39,297 nucleotides of DNA, taken from contig JAHEQA010000046.1 of the NCBI GenBank assembly GCA_019561615.1, positions 1 to 39,297 of the forward strand. Direction: 5' to 3'. Source of the stretch: Methanothermococcus sp. SCGC AD-155-E23. GTDB lineage: Archaea > AGJL01 > Methanococci > Methanococcales > Methanococcaceae. The stretch's first letter is position 1, and every line of letters begins with the position of its first letter. Made by a program: the position numbers and the translations under genes. Under the pieces are notes generated by a model. That model saw only the letters and a list, made by a program, of their open reading frames with translations. It searched no databases and was not told the DNA's origin. Below are positions 1 to 8,162 of this stretch, piece after piece.

Positions 1-123
1 ATATCTCCAAGTATCTTTGAGGCCTCCTCTATCCCCCTTGAAAGTAATTTCTCATCCCTCTCACTTACACCCTTATACACCCTATTTCCCTTTACAAACC
101 CCTTTCCCTCATCTCCTATCTTT
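1..123. repeat. Terminal inverted copy of 1385-1507
   Basis: Read on the minus strand, these 123 bases match 1385-1507 of the plus strand base for base. The match runs from the first base of the window to the AAAGATAGGA shared by the K+ channel gene and the GMC oxidoreductase gene, and stops at base 124. The copied segment is internal to the oxidoreductase coding sequence and makes no sense as the end of the channel gene. I infer a fold-back join at a short shared sequence, typical of a contig-end or amplification chimera. A true inverted duplication is the alternative. Confidence 0.9.
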
Positions 124-469
124 CCAAATCCACATATTATATAGTGATCCCTGATACTCTTCAACTTACTCTCCATCTTTTTCAACCTTAGTATCTTTTT
201 TAACTCTCCCTCTATTATGAACCCTGCAATGGAGGCGAAGGTATAGGCCATCGCCCCAGCACCACAGATAATATAAAAGAGTTAAATAACTTGCCCCAGA
301 AGGTGGTAGGTGTTATATCTCCATAACCTACTGTAGATAGGGTGATCACTGTAACGTAGAGGGCTGTAAAGAAATCCCATCCCTCTAGATACATAAGACC
401 TAAAGTTGCTGTGAGAATAATGGTCAAGAGTACAAGGATACCTAACTTTATCCTATTTAGTGGTTCCAT
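124..469 (-). pseudogene. Two-helix potassium channel with RCK domain, frameshifted and cut off
   Basis: The N-terminus has one membrane helix (about residues 8-28), a pore helix and the selectivity filter TVGYGD, then a second membrane helix. This is the plan of MthK-type prokaryotic K+ channels. The first frame runs off into nonsense near base 280 and stops at 215. Moving back one base in the TTTT run near 280 restores the second helix (YIICGAGAMAYTFASIAGF), a linker rich in Lys and Glu, and the start of a Rossmann RCK/TrkA-N domain (HYIICGFGKIG). There the gene is broken by the inverted copy at 1-123. A one-base deletion plus the chimeric join explain the damage best; real decay is possible. 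The start is ATG at 469, after a GAGGG motif. The gene is divergent from the GMC oxidoreductase. Confidence 0.75.
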
Positions 470-550
470 CCCTCTCCCTAGATAGAATTTATAACTCCTC
501 TAATTCTTCATAATATTTATTGATACAGGTGATGTAAAAAGAGGGATAGT

Positions 551-1712
551 GTGTATCACTTTATCATTGTAGGCTCTGGGGTAGGAGGTAGTACCCTATT
601 CAAGGAGTTAAATGAGAAGTATCCAGATAAGAGGATACTACTTCTGGAGATGGGAGATGAGAGGATAAAATATAACACCCTTAAAGGGGAGGTCCAGGTA
701 CTCTATATCACCTCCCTTGGAGGTTCAGGGTTAGGGGCTGTGGGAAATGCCATGAGGATAGATCTGAGAAAGGTGGGTATAAGAGATAGTGAAATTTATC
801 AGGAGGTGGAGAGGGAGTTAAAGGTTAGGGAGGTACCAGATAGTCATATCAGGGAGAGTATTAGACCTCTATTTGATTATGGATTTAGAAGAACCCCAAA
901 GTTTATAGACTTTAAGGGGTGTACTCCTGTGGCATGTGTGCAAGGAAGATATGTCCCTATAAGTGGACTCCTAGAAGATTTTTAAATGTTCAAAGTCCCT
1001 CCAGTAAGATAGTTACAAACTTCTACGTCTCCTCTATATCTAAGGAGGGGAATCTCCTTAAAGTTGAGGGGTTCCATCTACTAAGTGGAAAGAGAAGGTG
1101 TTCCAGGGGGAGAGGGTTATAGTATGTGGTGGAGGTATAAACTCTCCAAGGATACTCTCTACCATACTGGACAACGAACACCTTGGAAGAAACCTCTTTG
1201 TAGATATCTTCCTCACAGTTGGAGGGGTATTGGAGAATTGCAACTTAGATAGATCTGTACCTATGGCCCTCTACAGGAGATATGATGGATTTCTACTGTC
1301 ACCTCACTATACCTTCCATCTCTACCGTAGTATAAAAAGGGAAAGGAGAGATGTAGGGAGTGGAGATATTTACGGTATAATGGTAAAGATAGGAGATGAG
1401 GGAAAGGGGTTTGTAAAGGGAAATAGGGTGTATAAGGGTGTAAGTGAGAGGGATGAGAAATTACTTTCAAGGGGGATAGAGGAGGCCTCAAAGATACTTG
1501 GAGATATGGGGGTTGAAAGAATATACAGAACTGTACTTAGGGGATCCCACCCTGGAGGCACCTGTGCCATGGGTAAGGTGGTGGATAAAAACTTTGAGAC
1601 CGAGGTGGAAAACCTCTACGTCTGTGACGCCTCGGTATTTCCAGAGTCTCCAGGCCTACCTCCCATCCTGGGAATAGTGGCAATGGGAAAGAAGTTGGGA
1701 AGTATTCTATAA
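551..1712 (+). pseudogene. GMC-family FAD oxidoreductase, apparently with two frameshifts
   Basis: Three overlapping frames together give one protein of about 387 residues. The first frame has the FAD-binding motif GSGVGGS near the N-terminus. The middle frame has a cysteine-rich stretch (CGMCARKICPYKW). The last frame has VIVCGGGINSPRIL and the GMC C-terminal signature GSHPGGTCAMG followed by LYVCDASVFPESPG. The frame changes fall near 928 and near 1090, and each fits one missing base. The substrate is unknown; GMC enzymes oxidise alcohols, sugars or sterols using FAD. The start is GTG at 551 after GAGGGAT. Because the neighbouring channel also has a one-base deletion and the contig end is chimeric, base-level errors are more likely than a true pseudogene. 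hcgB follows after a short gap. Confidence 0.7.
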
Positions 1713-1729
1713 TTAAAAGGGGAGTAAAA

Positions 1730-2209
1730 ATGGAGTTGGAAGGCTATATTTTAAGGGCCTACCTAGAGTCCGCCAGGGGTGAAAGGAAGGGGGATAAGTT
1801 GGAGGAGGTTAAGGCTATAAGGGATTATATCCTCAGGGGAAAGAAGGTAGTTGTGGCCACGAGAAACTTAGATAAATTTAGGGTAATCAGGGAGGTGCTA
1901 CTGGAGAAGGTATATAAGGGTAGGGATGTAGATATATCCAGGATAGAGGTACCTACTGAGGTTGCAGATCTTACAAGAATGCCTGCACTTATTAAGGGGT
2001 TGATAGCTGTAGATACAACAGATGCCCATATCGTTATTGCACGGGGTAGGTTGGGAGTGCCAGGTTCAGGTTCCATACTTCTCATCCTAGATAGTAAAGG
2101 TAGGATCTTAAGTGGCTCCATATCTCCTCCCTCTGTTATACACAGGAGGAGTGTCGAGGATACCGTTAGGGAGGAGTTGTTGGAGGCACTGAGGAGGATA
2201 GGAATATAG
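1730..2209 (+). CDS. hcgB: FeGP cofactor biosynthesis guanylyltransferase HcgB (DUF3236)
   Basis: This 159-residue protein has the DUF3236 features: an ITPase-like segment VVVATRNLDKF at about 40-50, the motif TDAHIVIARGRLG, then GVPGSGS and SGSISPPSVIHR. HcgB joins GMP from GTP to the pyridinol precursor of the iron-guanylylpyridinol cofactor of [Fe]-hydrogenase. The ATG follows GGGGAGTAAAA. hcgC starts 9 bp after its stop, so the two form an operon that probably includes argG. The client enzyme Hmd is also in this window, at 19097-20134. The family assignment is from memory of the protein pattern. Confidence 0.85.
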   Translation: MELEGYILRAYLESARGERKGDKLEEVKAIRDYILRGKKVVVATRNLDKFRVIREVLLEKVYKGRDVDISRIEVPTEVADLTRMPALIKGLIAVDTTDAHIVIARGRLGVPGSGSILLILDSKGRILSGSISPPSVIHRRSVEDTVREELLEALRRIGI

Positions 2210-2218
2210 GGGGATATC

Positions 2219-3007
2219 ATGAAGTACGGTATAACAGAGACTGTGAAAACCTTGGACTCCAAGACCAAGGTGGTAGATATAATCTACTCCATCGTAGAGG
2301 AGAAGACAAGGGCTGTAAAGTACTTCCTAGAGGGGGAGGAGTTTAGGGAGACTCTCATATTTGGGGCCTACCTCTGTGGGAATTATATGGCCTCCTCCCT
2401 TTTAAACGACTCTGAGAAGGTGATACTTGTAGACATCTACCCCCATCTCAGGGATATTGTAAGGAATGAGAGGATAACCTTTATGGATATAAATTCCTTC
2501 AACCTGGCCCTGAGGAATAAGAGGTTAAACCCTGACCTGGTAATTGACCTAACTGGGTTGGGAGGTTTAAGTCCAGAAGTTATCTCCCACTTTGATCCAG
2601 AGGTTCTAATAGTGGAGAATCCAAAGGGGGTATACGACAGGGATATCTACCAGGCGGATAACTCCTTGGAGAGGTTGAAGGTAGGTAGGAGGAGGGGGTT
2701 GTTAAATACCTACAGGATCTCCAGGGTCTCAAAGACCTCTGGAACTATGACCTTAACTATAGATACCATACTAGATGCCTGCCATGAGATCAGGGAACTT
2801 GAAGGTGTACTTTACGTGGTACCAAATTTGAAATACTACGAGGGCATCCTCTTCCACGAGAAGAATGTAAGAAAGTTTATGGAGGAGATAAACAAACCTG
2901 CCATAACTGTAAGTTGCCTGGATGAGGACATCTATCCAAAGGTAGAGAAGATACTTAAGAAAAATATAGAGAGGGTGAAGTCCTTCGTAGAACATGTAGA
3001 TAGGTGA
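2219..3007 (+). CDS. hcgC: FeGP cofactor biosynthesis methyltransferase HcgC (DUF1188)
   Basis: This 262-residue protein matches the DUF1188 pattern. An N-terminal part is followed by a Rossmann-like segment ([18 protein letters not shown], about 45-62, then VILVDIYPH) and by [15 protein letters not shown] near 108-120. HcgC uses S-adenosylmethionine to methylate the 6-carboxymethyl-pyridinol ring during FeGP cofactor synthesis. Overall length and order after hcgB agree with other Methanococcales. Its stop lies within the ribosome binding site (GGTGAAAAG) of argG, so translation of the two is probably coupled. Confidence 0.85.
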
Positions 3008-3011
3008 AAAG

Positions 3012-4205
3012 ATGTCAGAGAAGGTAGCAGTTTTAGCCTACTCTGGAGGTCTAGATACAAGCTGTTGTCTAAAGTTGTTGGAGGATAGGTACGGGTACAA
3101 GGTGGTAACCCTATGTGTAGATGTGGGGCAACCTGAGGAGGAGATTAAGGAGTGTGAGGAGAAGGCCAGGAGATATGGAGTATATGAACACTACACCATA
3201 GATGCCAAGGAGGAGTTTGTAAGGGAGTACATATTTAGGGCTATAAGGGCAAATGCCATGTATGAGGGATATCCCCTATCTACAGCACTAGCCAGGCCCC
3301 TCATTGCCACCAAGTTAGTTCAACTGGCAGAGGAGCTAGGTGCAGAGGCAGTGGCCCACGGCTGTACAGGGAAGGGGAATGATCAGTTTAGATTTGAAGC
3401 CATCATCAGGGCGAAGGCACCGCACCTAAGGATCATCGCCCCAATTAGGGATCTAAACCTTACAAGGAAGGAGGAGATAGAGTACGCTAAAAAACATGGC
3501 ATAGAGATCCCCTCAGAGAGTAAAAAATACAGTATAGACGAGAACCTCTGGGGTAGAAGTATAGAGGGAGGTCCATTGGAGGATCCCGCCTTTGAACCTC
3601 CTGAGGAGATATACTCTTGGACAAGGAATCCAAGGGAGTGTACTAAGGAGGAATACGTAGAGATAGAGTTTGAAAAGGGGATACCAGTTCGTATAAATGG
3701 GAAGGAGATGGATCCAGTGGAACTTATAAGGGAGTGTAATAAGATAGGGGGAAGAAATGGTATAGGTAGAATAGACATTATTGAGGATAGGATAATAGGT
3801 TTAAAATCCAGGGAGAACTACGAATGCCCAGGGGCTATAATGCTCATAACGGCACATAAGGCCTTGGAGCAGTTGGTACTTACGAGAGAGGAGTTGAAGT
3901 TCAAGGAGATAGTAGATGCCACCTATGGAGATCTTGTATACAGGGGTCTCTGGCATGAACCTCTAAGGGAGGGATTAGATAGGTTTATAGAGAAGACCCA
4001 GGAGAGGGTATGTGGTAAGGTTACCTTGAAGTTATACGGAGGCTCCCTCTGGGTTGTTGGAAGGGAGAGTCCCTATGCCCTGTACAGTAAGGACCTTGTA
4101 TCCTTCGAGGAGAAGGAGATGGATCAGAGGGAGATTACAGGTATGGTTAAATACTATGGATTACAGGCTGCCCTATATGAATCTATCAAGAGAAGACTCC
4201 AGTAG
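3012..4205 (+). CDS. argG: Argininosuccinate synthase
   Basis: The 397-residue protein is full length for ArgG. It carries the N-type ATP pyrophosphatase loop AYSGGLDTS at residues 9-17, the segment [18 protein letters not shown] and the substrate-binding motif [14 protein letters not shown]. It joins citrulline and aspartate with ATP to give argininosuccinate, the next-to-last step of arginine synthesis. The ATG sits four bases after GGTGA. The last 33 bp overlap the 3' end of truA on the other strand. Its place behind hcgBC suggests co-transcription but no shared pathway. Confidence 0.97.
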
Positions 4206-4994
4206 ATCTATCATACTCCTGGAGACCCCACATCTTACAACACTTCTCCGGTACTCCTTCCCCCACTCCTCCTTAAATCTCCTCACTACATAGGGGTCGT
4301 ATATATACTCCACATCTGTTTTAGCCTCAACTAGTATAAGGCCCTCAGGAGGGGCAGGAGGTACACCCTCCCTGTGATTTACATCTAGGAGACGGTCTAT
4401 CCAAGATACATCCCTTCTACCTCTGCCTATCTCAGAGAGTGCTGTCACTATCTTTCTAACCATGTTCCAGAGGAAACTCTCCCCTATGACGTCTATCACT
4501 ATATAGGGATCATGTCGGGAGATCCTTATATCCAATATCCTTCTAATGGGACTTTTCTCCTTGGATCTATCCCTCTTGGAGAGGTTGTGGAAGGAGTGGG
4601 TTCCAACAAGTTTCCTGGCACCCTCAATCATGAGATCTATGTTGTAATCCTCATCCCCTGGAAGTATATACCTGTAGTGTCTATACCTTACCTCTGGTAT
4701 CTCCTCTATCCTTCTATATCCAAGTATCCAGATACCCTTATTCTTTAACTTGGAGTAGATATAGGAGAGTTTAGGCTCCTCCCTTAGATAGACCACTACA
4801 AAGTTTCCAAGTGCTGAGACCCCCCTATCAGTTCTACCCCCGTAGAATAGGATACCCTTTTTATCTTCAATGAGATATCCACACTCCTCCAGAGCCTCTA
4901 TTATCTTATCACATACGGTGTCCCTATGGGGTTGAGATTGAAACCCCCTATGACGTCCGTCATAGGCCACCTTGAGTATGTACATACCCTCCAT
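4173..4994 (-). CDS. truA: tRNA pseudouridine synthase TruA
   Basis: This 273-residue protein starts with the family's [16 protein letters not shown] and has the catalytic motif [13 protein letters not shown], where Asp56 is the expected nucleophile. A second conserved part, [18 protein letters not shown], is near the C-terminus. TruA makes pseudouridine at positions 38-40 of the tRNA anticodon arm. I prefer the ATG at 4994, preceded by GTGATACC; an ATG three codons later (4985) is the alternative. It is divergent from ppaC across a 65-bp AT-rich gap and convergent with argG. Confidence 0.93.
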
Positions 4995-5059
4995 GGTATC
5001 ACAGGTTACCGTTTTTATATCAAAAGTTAAAAATTATAATAAAAAAAGTGGGGGATAAG

Positions 5060-5983
5060 ATGCTATACGTAGTGGGGCACAAGAATCCAGATACAGACAG
5101 TATATGTTCTGCCATAGTTCTAGCCTACTTCCTAGATGGAGTTCCTGCAAGGTTAGGGGATCTAAATCCAGAGACCCAGTTGGTACTAAGGAGATTTGGA
5201 GTTATGGAACCTGAGTTAATAAGATCTGCAGAGGGTAAGGAGATATTCCTCGTGGATCACAGTGAGAGATCTCAAACCCTAGATGATCTAGAGAGGGGAA
5301 AACTTGTAGGTATCCTGGACCACCACAAGATAGGTATAACTACCTTGGAGCCAATACTCTACCTTGCAAAACCTGTGGGATCTACAGCCACTATAATAGG
5401 GGAACTCTACTTTAAAAATGGGATGGATATTGTAGGGGGAGAGAACAAGGAGTTGAAACCTGACCTGGCAGGGTTACTACTCTCTGCAATAATTTCAGAT
5501 ACAGTTCTCTTTAGATCCCCAACTACCACAGATCTAGACAAAAAAATAGGGGAGAAACTTGCGAAGATTGCAGGTATAGAGGATATACAGGTCTACGGCA
5601 TGGAGTTACTTAAGGCAAAATCTACAGTAAGTAAGATGAAACCTGAGGAGATCGTGAAATTGGACTACAAGGAGTATAACTTCAAGGGTAGAAAGGTAGG
5701 TATTGGACAGGTGGAGGTAATAGATATTGAAGAGATCCAGGATAAGAAGGAGGAGATATACAGGATACTTCAGGAGAAACTTAAGGAGGGTTACGATCTT
5801 ATACTCTTCCTCATAACTGATATAATGAGAGGGGGTAGTGAGATACTGGTTGTAGGTAACAGGGAGGCATTTGAGAAGGCCTTCAATGTAAAGTTGGAGG
5901 GGAAGAGTATATATCTAGAGGGTGTTATGTCCAGGAAGAAACAGATAGTTCCCCCACTGGAAAGGTATTACAAGGGGTTGTAG
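5060..5983 (+). CDS. ppaC: Manganese-dependent inorganic pyrophosphatase (DHH family)
   Basis: The protein begins MLYVVGHKNPDTDS, which carries the family II pyrophosphatase metal ligands His7, Asp11 and Asp13. Further on are the DHH-type motifs LVDHSE and ILDHHK, and at the C-terminus the DHHA2 substrate motif SRKKQIVPPLE. It hydrolyses pyrophosphate to phosphate using Mn or Co. I start at the ATG at 5060, three bases after GGGGGAT; a GTG at 5048 in frame is less likely. The stop is one base from the end of feoA on the other strand. Confidence 0.95.
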   Translation: MLYVVGHKNPDTDSICSAIVLAYFLDGVPARLGDLNPETQLVLRRFGVMEPELIRSAEGKEIFLVDHSERSQTLDDLERGKLVGILDHHKIGITTLEPILYLAKPVGSTATIIGELYFKNGMDIVGGENKELKPDLAGLLLSAIISDTVLFRSPTTTDLDKKIGEKLAKIAGIEDIQVYGMELLKAKSTVSKMKPEEIVKLDYKEYNFKGRKVGIGQVEVIDIEEIQDKKEEIYRILQEKLKEGYDLILFLITDIMRGGSEILVVGNREAFEKAFNVKLEGKSIYLEGVMSRKKQIVPPLERYYKGL

Positions 5984-5984
5984 A

Positions 5985-6191
5985 TTACTTTACAACCTTA
6001 ATAAGTCTTGCTAAATCCCTTCCAATTGCTAGTTTAGAGTTACCCACCCTTACAATCATAGGTCCCCTCTCATTGTATACAACTGTAATCCTTGTACCAG
6101 GTACAATCCTCAAGTCGTAGAGTTTTTTATACTCCCCACATACCTCTTTTACAACGTATGTACCTGGTTTCTTATCTGCTAGACTTTCCAT
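5985..6191 (-). CDS. feoA: FeoA-type ferrous iron transport protein
   Basis: This 68-residue protein has the SH3-like beta-barrel pattern of FeoA: a repeated turn pattern, LRIVPGTRITVVY, and a final VGNSKLAIGRDLARLIKV. FeoA is a small cytoplasmic partner that modulates FeoB. The ATG is preceded by GGTGAGTGT. It lies 18 bp downstream of feoB on the same strand, so the order is feoB-feoA, the reverse of the bacterial operon. It should share the feoB promoter. Confidence 0.88.
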   Translation of the reverse strand: MESLADKKPGTYVVKEVCGEYKKLYDLRIVPGTRITVVYNERGPMIVRVGNSKLAIGRDLARLIKVVK

Positions 6192-6209
6192 ACACTCACC
6201 TCTCTATTT

Positions 6210-8162
6210 TTATACAAACCCTAGTAGTCGTCCAATGTTGTACACCACTATACCTACAAGGGTAGCCAGTATCAGGTTGTAACTTACTGCAAATAGTGTC
6301 CACTTTATACTCTTCCCTGTCTCAAAGAATAGGCTAGCTATGGTAGCTAAACAGGGAATGTACAATACAGTGACCAGTGTAAGGACAAAGGCCTGAAGTG
6401 GGGTCAGTGCCTCCACTATCTTTCCATTGTAGGCGATCTCCATGGTGGACACTACCAACTCCTTGGCGATGATCCCAGCTAGGAGTGCAAGTGCCCCCCT
6501 CCAATCTATACCCATAAGCTCTGTTATAGGTTCCACCATCTTTCCCAGTAGCATACCGTAACAGTTTTCCTCACTGGGATAGTGGAGCAGGTAGTAGAAG
6601 AGTATAGAACCTGCCAGTATAATGGTTCCAGCCCTTATAAGGAAGTGCTTCGTATAGGCCCAGGCCCTTTTAAGGATGTAATTCCAATCTGGGAGTCTAA
6701 AGGGAGGTAACTCGAAGATAGGTTCTTCAGGTTTACCCTTTACAATATACTTACCTACCACATAGGATACAAGGACTAGTAGGAGAAGGGATATAGCTAT
6801 TATTCCCATGGCGAAGAGGGAGGCATGACTGGCAAAGAATGCACTGGCCATAAACCCAATTACAACAAATCTGGCGGAACATGGGACTAGAGGTGTTACT
6901 AGAATTGTGGCAAGTCGTCTAAGGGGATCTGGGATGGTTCTGGTAGCCAGTATACCTGGAACGTTACATCCAAAACTAATTAGAAGAGGTATTGTTGAAC
7001 CTCCACTGAGACCTATCTTAGCCATTATGTTGTGGAAGAGGGCTGAGACCCTTGCCAGATATCCAACACTTTCCAGGAGGGAGAGGGATAGCATCATAAA
7101 GGCTACATAGGGGAAGAAGGTAAGTACTGTCCCTACCCCTCCAATAATACCCTCCACTACAACCCCCCTGTATGGCTCTGGAATTATTCCACCTAGATAC
7201 CCCCCTAAATACTCGAAGAACATCTCAATATACTCTATAAAAACATCCCCTAACCCTATAACAACAGTGTATACTATGTACATAACAATGGCAAAAATTG
7301 CTATCCCGTATACAGGGTGGAGAAGTATTCTATCTATATCGTCAAATATTATCTTCTCCTTCCAGATACCCTTCAGTATCTCATCTACCTTCTTATACCT
7401 CTCCTCGGCAACGTAACTCTCTGCGTCATGTCTTATCTTCCTTTCCAACTCCTCCTTTATCTTTTTAACCTCCTTAAACAGATCCTCATTCTTCTTAAAC
7501 AGCTCTACAACTTCAGGATCCCCTTCTAGGAAGGATATTGCCAGCCATCTCTTTGGAACATCCTTGAATTTTCCCTCTGTAGGTAGGGTGTATTTCTCCA
7601 ACTTCTCTACTATCTCCCTTACAGTATCCTCCAGGAGTTCAGAGTATCTAATCTCACAGTGAATAGGCTTATAGTTAAATATAGCCTCCTTTAGATCCTC
7701 TATACCTATCTTGTATCTACCTGAGGTTTTTACAACTGGAAGTCCCCCTAACCTCTCACTGAGTTTCTTACTATCTACAGAGATGCCGTACTTCTCCGCC
7801 TCATCTATAAAGTTTAGACAGAGTATAGGTGATCTACCAAGTTCTATCAACTGTAAGGTCAAATAGAGGTTTCTGTTAAGGTTGTTTGTATCTATCACAT
7901 CTACAATGATGGCATCCTTGTTCTCGATGATGAAATCCCTTGCTATCTTCTGGTCCAGGGAGTCAGCTTTTAGGGAGTATATACCAGGTAGATCAATGAC
8001 ATGGAATTTAACACCTTTATAAGCCATTGTACCCTCTTTCTTCTCAACAGTTACACCTGGCCAGTTACCTACACGTTGGGTCATACCAGTTAACTCGTTG
8101 AATATAGTGGTCTTTCCAACGTTAGGTTGACCTACTAGGGCAACTATCTTTTTATCCTCCAT
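6210..8162 (-). CDS. feoB: Ferrous iron transporter FeoB
   Basis: The 650-residue protein has an N-terminal G domain with G1 GQPNVGKT (11-18), the FeoB switch region NWPGVTVEKKEG, G3 DLPG (57-60) and G4 NFID. A helical spacer rich in Lys and Glu follows, then a membrane domain of about eight helices from residue 280 on. That domain holds two FeoB Gate motifs, one with the conserved Cys of SFGCNVPG and one around PCLATIA. It imports Fe2+ across the cytoplasmic membrane. ATG follows GGTGATAGG. The upstream region carries a TATA box between two 25-bp repeats, pointing to iron-responsive control. Confidence 0.97.
   Translation of the reverse strand: MEDKKIVALVGQPNVGKTTIFNELTGMTQRVGNWPGVTVEKKEGTMAYKGVKFHVIDLPGIYSLKADSLDQKIARDFIIENKDAIIVDVIDTNNLNRNLYLTLQLIELGRSPILCLNFIDEAEKYGISVDSKKLSERLGGLPVVKTSGRYKIGIEDLKEAIFNYKPIHCEIRYSELLEDTVREIVEKLEKYTLPTEGKFKDVPKRWLAISFLEGDPEVVELFKKNEDLFKEVKKIKEELERKIRHDAESYVAEERYKKVDEILKGIWKEKIIFDDIDRILLHPVYGIAIFAIVMYIVYTVVIGLGDVFIEYIEMFFEYLGGYLGGIIPEPYRGVVVEGIIGGVGTVLTFFPYVAFMMLSLSLLESVGYLARVSALFHNIMAKIGLSGGSTIPLLISFGCNVPGILATRTIPDPLRRLATILVTPLVPCSARFVVIGFMASAFFASHASLFAMGIIAISLLLLVLVSYVVGKYIVKGKPEEPIFELPPFRLPDWNYILKRAWAYTKHFLIRAGTIILAGSILFYYLLHYPSEENCYGMLLGKMVEPITELMGIDWRGALALLAGIIAKELVVSTMEIAYNGKIVEALTPLQAFVLTLVTVLYIPCLATIASLFFETGKSIKWTLFAVSYNLILATLVGIVVYNIGRLLGFV

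Follow-up and report, generated by a model that had tools for sequence, protein, structure and literature searches.

The left end of contig C46 in the genome of Methanothermococcus sp. SCGC AD-155-E23 raises a simple question: is the potassium channel gene found there really interrupted in the middle of its RCK domain and joined to an inverted piece of an oxidoreductase gene, or was this arrangement made in the laboratory? The contig has 64,289 bp. The window which we have analysed is its first 39,297 bases, so that the left edge of the window is the true end of the contig. The base right after the window (C46:39298) is an N.

The genome is that of a single sorted cell from the Von Damm vent field, and multiple displacement amplification (MDA) was used to amplify its DNA. 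It was sequenced on a NextSeq 500 and assembled with four programs, whose results were merged with CISA (PMC8417812). This single-amplified genome has 51 contigs with a total length of 1,043,924, an N50 of 56,319 and a G+C content of 42.9% (PMC8417812 Table 1). The complete congener G005 has 35.2% G+C (in 1.2 Mb of G005), and three other single cells from the same sample have about 29–31% (PMC8417812 Table 1).

The inverted repeat and the two genes

The features found at the left end of the window are the following:

1–113, minus strand: fold-back tail, a misplaced inverted copy of 1395–1507 from the GMC gene, not genomic at this place (exact inverted repeat; in relatives the sequence is found only inside the GMC gene)
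114–123, minus strand: junction microhomology AAAGATAGGA, common to the channel and GMC genes (relatives are collinear from 114/115; the repeat ends at 123)
124–469, minus strand: 5' portion of the gene for a two-transmembrane K+ channel with an RCK (TrkA_N) domain; the remainder of the gene is on contig C39 (frame, relatives, Pfam)
551–1712, plus strand: GMC-type oxidoreductase gene (frame, relatives, Pfam)
1385–1507, plus strand: genuine original of the fold-back, at its conserved position within the GMC gene (collinear with loci L004, L005 and L026 throughout)

Positions 1–123 and 1385–1507 are exact reverse complements: 123 nt, 100% complementary, with 1261 nt between the arms. No other long inverted repeat is present in the window; the next best one has 30 nt at 80%. 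Chance is ruled out as the origin of an exact 123-mer. A real repeat or a mobile element was also considered and rejected: in the whole genome the arm sequence is present only in these two places, and in relatives only inside the GMC gene. No RNA or tRNA features are found within 8 kb of the join. The left arm begins at base 1 of the contig, and thus it is not embedded in unique sequence on both sides, as a genuine inverted duplication should be.

The two genes share AAAGATAGGA at the join. This word of 10 nt is found once on each strand of the window, at 123–114 (minus) and at 1385–1394 (plus); it is bounded by the limit of collinearity with relatives at 114 and by the limit of the repeat at 123. 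The frame of the channel reads ...HYIICGFGKIG and then changes to DEGKGFVKGNRVYKGVSERD, which is antisense GMC sequence; in the nearest relative (L004) the RCK motif runs on as GFGKIGKVVAEKFDSLGVPYVVVD. The original prediction had described a perfect fold-back, a join sequence common to both genes and an RCK domain which stops in mid-motif, and all of it is borne out.

In the window Pfam detects Ion_trans_2 in the channel fragment and GMC_oxred_C in the GMC gene; the intact channel of a relative has Ion_trans_2, TrkA_N and TrkA_C. The open frame of the GMC gene has 387–401 aa in the nearest relative. Both frames are broken in the window by single-base deletions with respect to three relatives, near position 283 in the channel gene and near 925 and 1099 in the GMC gene. 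These frameshifts are separate from the fold-back. All three lie within 1.1 kb of the contig end. They probably reflect errors of the consensus where coverage was poor, real mutations or true gene decay being the less likely reading. Between 1100 and 8200, gaps against L004 fall only at or near intergenic positions, with none seen within genes.

The locus in relatives and the missing part of the channel

The nearest relative locus, L004, comes from the metagenome-assembled genome SZUA-1534 (its match position is the same as G010:C21). It is 92% identical to the window and collinear with it from 114 to 6500. Collinearity likewise starts at 114 or 115 in L005/L029, L026 and L031. A search throughout the genus gave the same limit: homology with the channel begins at 114 or 115 in nine genomes (G010, G008, G001, G004, G005, G006, G007, G011 and G009), two of which, G010 and G008, contain L004 and L029. 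None of the nine congeners has window positions 1–122 joined to the channel; where the fold-back sequence is found in them, it sits separately, inside the GMC gene. The channel is complete in the four relatives we have read, with 334–336 aa and an RCK domain. The comparison with relatives, which had been proposed as a check, thus gives a clear result: collinearity extends to 114/115, and from there the RCK domain continues.

The rest of the channel gene is not lost. Using the sequence of the relative beyond the join, we have found the remainder of the RCK gene in the same genome at C39:2706–3999, 93% identical to L004. Contig C39 has 4,103 bp; its positions 173–3999 correspond to L004:3970–7793 at 93%, and the match is taken up again by C46 at L004:7951. 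The order along L004 is therefore C37, C39, C46, with about 157 bp (measured on L004) missing inside the channel gene between C39 and C46. The true genome is collinear with its congeners across the join: they are collinear with the window down to 114/115, and the gene goes on in C39. Since the seemingly broken gene is carried on by a second contig of this genome, we are dealing with an ordinary laboratory artefact.

Single Ns are scattered over C39 (4.1 kb, with 16 Ns), C49, C13, C8, C25 and other contigs, and the one at C46:39298 is a further case. They suggest that the consensus of the assembly is ambiguous at some bases. There are also near-identical stretches on different contigs: C32:26938–31092 and C41:1–4165 (4.1 kb), C38:11220–13338 and C47:37629–39747 (2.1 kb). 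They are probably redundancy left over from the merging of four assemblies.

Inverted repeats at contig ends throughout the assembly

We have searched for inverted repeats within contigs, with at least 94% identity, in the 33 readable contigs (1.01 Mb); the remaining 18 contigs, all shorter than 3 kb, read as N. The 13 repeats found are all at contig ends and none is clearly interior. Twelve of them lie within one base of the end, against about 0.0015 expected for random placement, and the thirteenth (C32:141–278) repeats a terminal arm in tandem. Lengths of 138–162 nt are found in nine of the 13, five of which have 149–151 nt: this size may correspond to about one read length, the NextSeq 500 being named in PMC8417812 with no stated read length. 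As a control, 1.2 Mb of the complete congener G005 contain four such pairs within 15 kb. The enrichment at ends is by itself no proof of artefact, because real repeats also end contigs.

Both C39 and C46 have fold-backs at their two ends. At the right end of C46, outside the window, there is an exact fold-back of 150 bp (61969–62118 and 64140–64289), and collinearity with G005 breaks at its join. Ends of C39 and C51 behave in the same way as this one: collinearity with a relative breaks at the join, with an overlap of about 2–7 bases. For C21, another contig with a fold-back, no match was found in 1.2 Mb of G005.

Origin of the left end of the contig

Chimeras produced by MDA have been well described. 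According to Lasken and Stockwell (2007), 85% of them are inverted, with segments mostly less than 10 kb apart and priming at 2–21 complementary nucleotides (PMC1855051). In a later study (PLoS One 2015) chimera distances range from 0 to over 5,000 nt; the overlap peaks at 6 nt and most overlaps have 5–8 nt (PMC4595205). The case studied here is similar in all these aspects: MDA-amplified DNA from a single cell, inverted segments, a distance of 1.3 kb (1261 nt between arms, well below 10 kb) and a join homology of 10 nt. Nothing of substance differs. The overlap is above the usual 5–8 nt (PMC4595205), but inside the 2–21 nt range (PMC1855051). With genuine archaeal inverted repeats and inverted duplications the structure has in common two identical arms in inverted orientation; it differs from genuine inverted duplications in that one of the arms forms the end of the contig, only a single copy is present in relatives and the interrupted gene resumes on another contig.

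We conclude that the left end of the contig is almost certainly an MDA inverted chimera which was retained by the assembler. During amplification by phi29 polymerase from one cell, a nascent minus strand would have been extended leftward through the GMC gene and on into that of the channel. Once displaced, its 3' end, ...AAAGATAGGA, may have annealed to TCCTATCTTT at 1394–1385, either on a displaced strand close by or on the same strand. Extension back through 1395–1507 would then join the segments in inverted orientation and leave a loop of about 1.3 kb. The true continuation was probably poorly covered, so that the contig would have stopped after roughly one read length of the chimeric branch. 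The genome itself goes on at base 114 with the remainder of the RCK domain, which is on C39.

The original prediction of an inverted chimera is supported; it left the choice between amplification and assembly. An error of assembly alone, in which the assembler or CISA joined the wrong strand at the shared word of 10 bases with no chimeric molecule, would be conceivable in a genome merged by CISA from four assemblies, where redundant contigs persist (C32/C41, C38/C47). We consider it very unlikely. Assembly usually works with k-mers or overlaps far longer than a 10-base word, so that reads crossing the join must have existed. Furthermore, the other joins which we have checked share just about 2–7 bases, as is typical of MDA chimeras. 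An amplification chimera is much better supported, and the assembler merely failed to remove it.

A real inverted duplication in the cell sequenced, of 123 bp or longer and running off the contig, would also truncate the channel gene. The sequence taken alone permits it, and a contig could well end at a real repeat, but the remainder of the channel is present in the same genome on C39, which lies beside C46 when the contigs are ordered along the relative. The two arms show 100% identity, and structures of the same kind recur at many further contig ends and at no site that is clearly interior. We find this explanation extremely improbable; the same applies to its extended form, with both genes in decay and the three single-base deletions as true mutations, to which we give hardly any credence.

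The amplification chimera leaves one point of the original prediction to be modified, namely that the first 123 bases should not be read as genome. This holds for bases 1–113, which are misplaced. It does not hold for 114–123: these bases agree with both genes and most probably belong to the channel.

The significance of the fold-back concerns only the quality of the data. It gives no ground for describing the channel gene as truncated or fused, and bases 1–113 ought to be trimmed off. In this public single-cell assembly other contigs end in tails of a similar kind, by which gene calls, searches for repeats and claims of structural variation can be misled.
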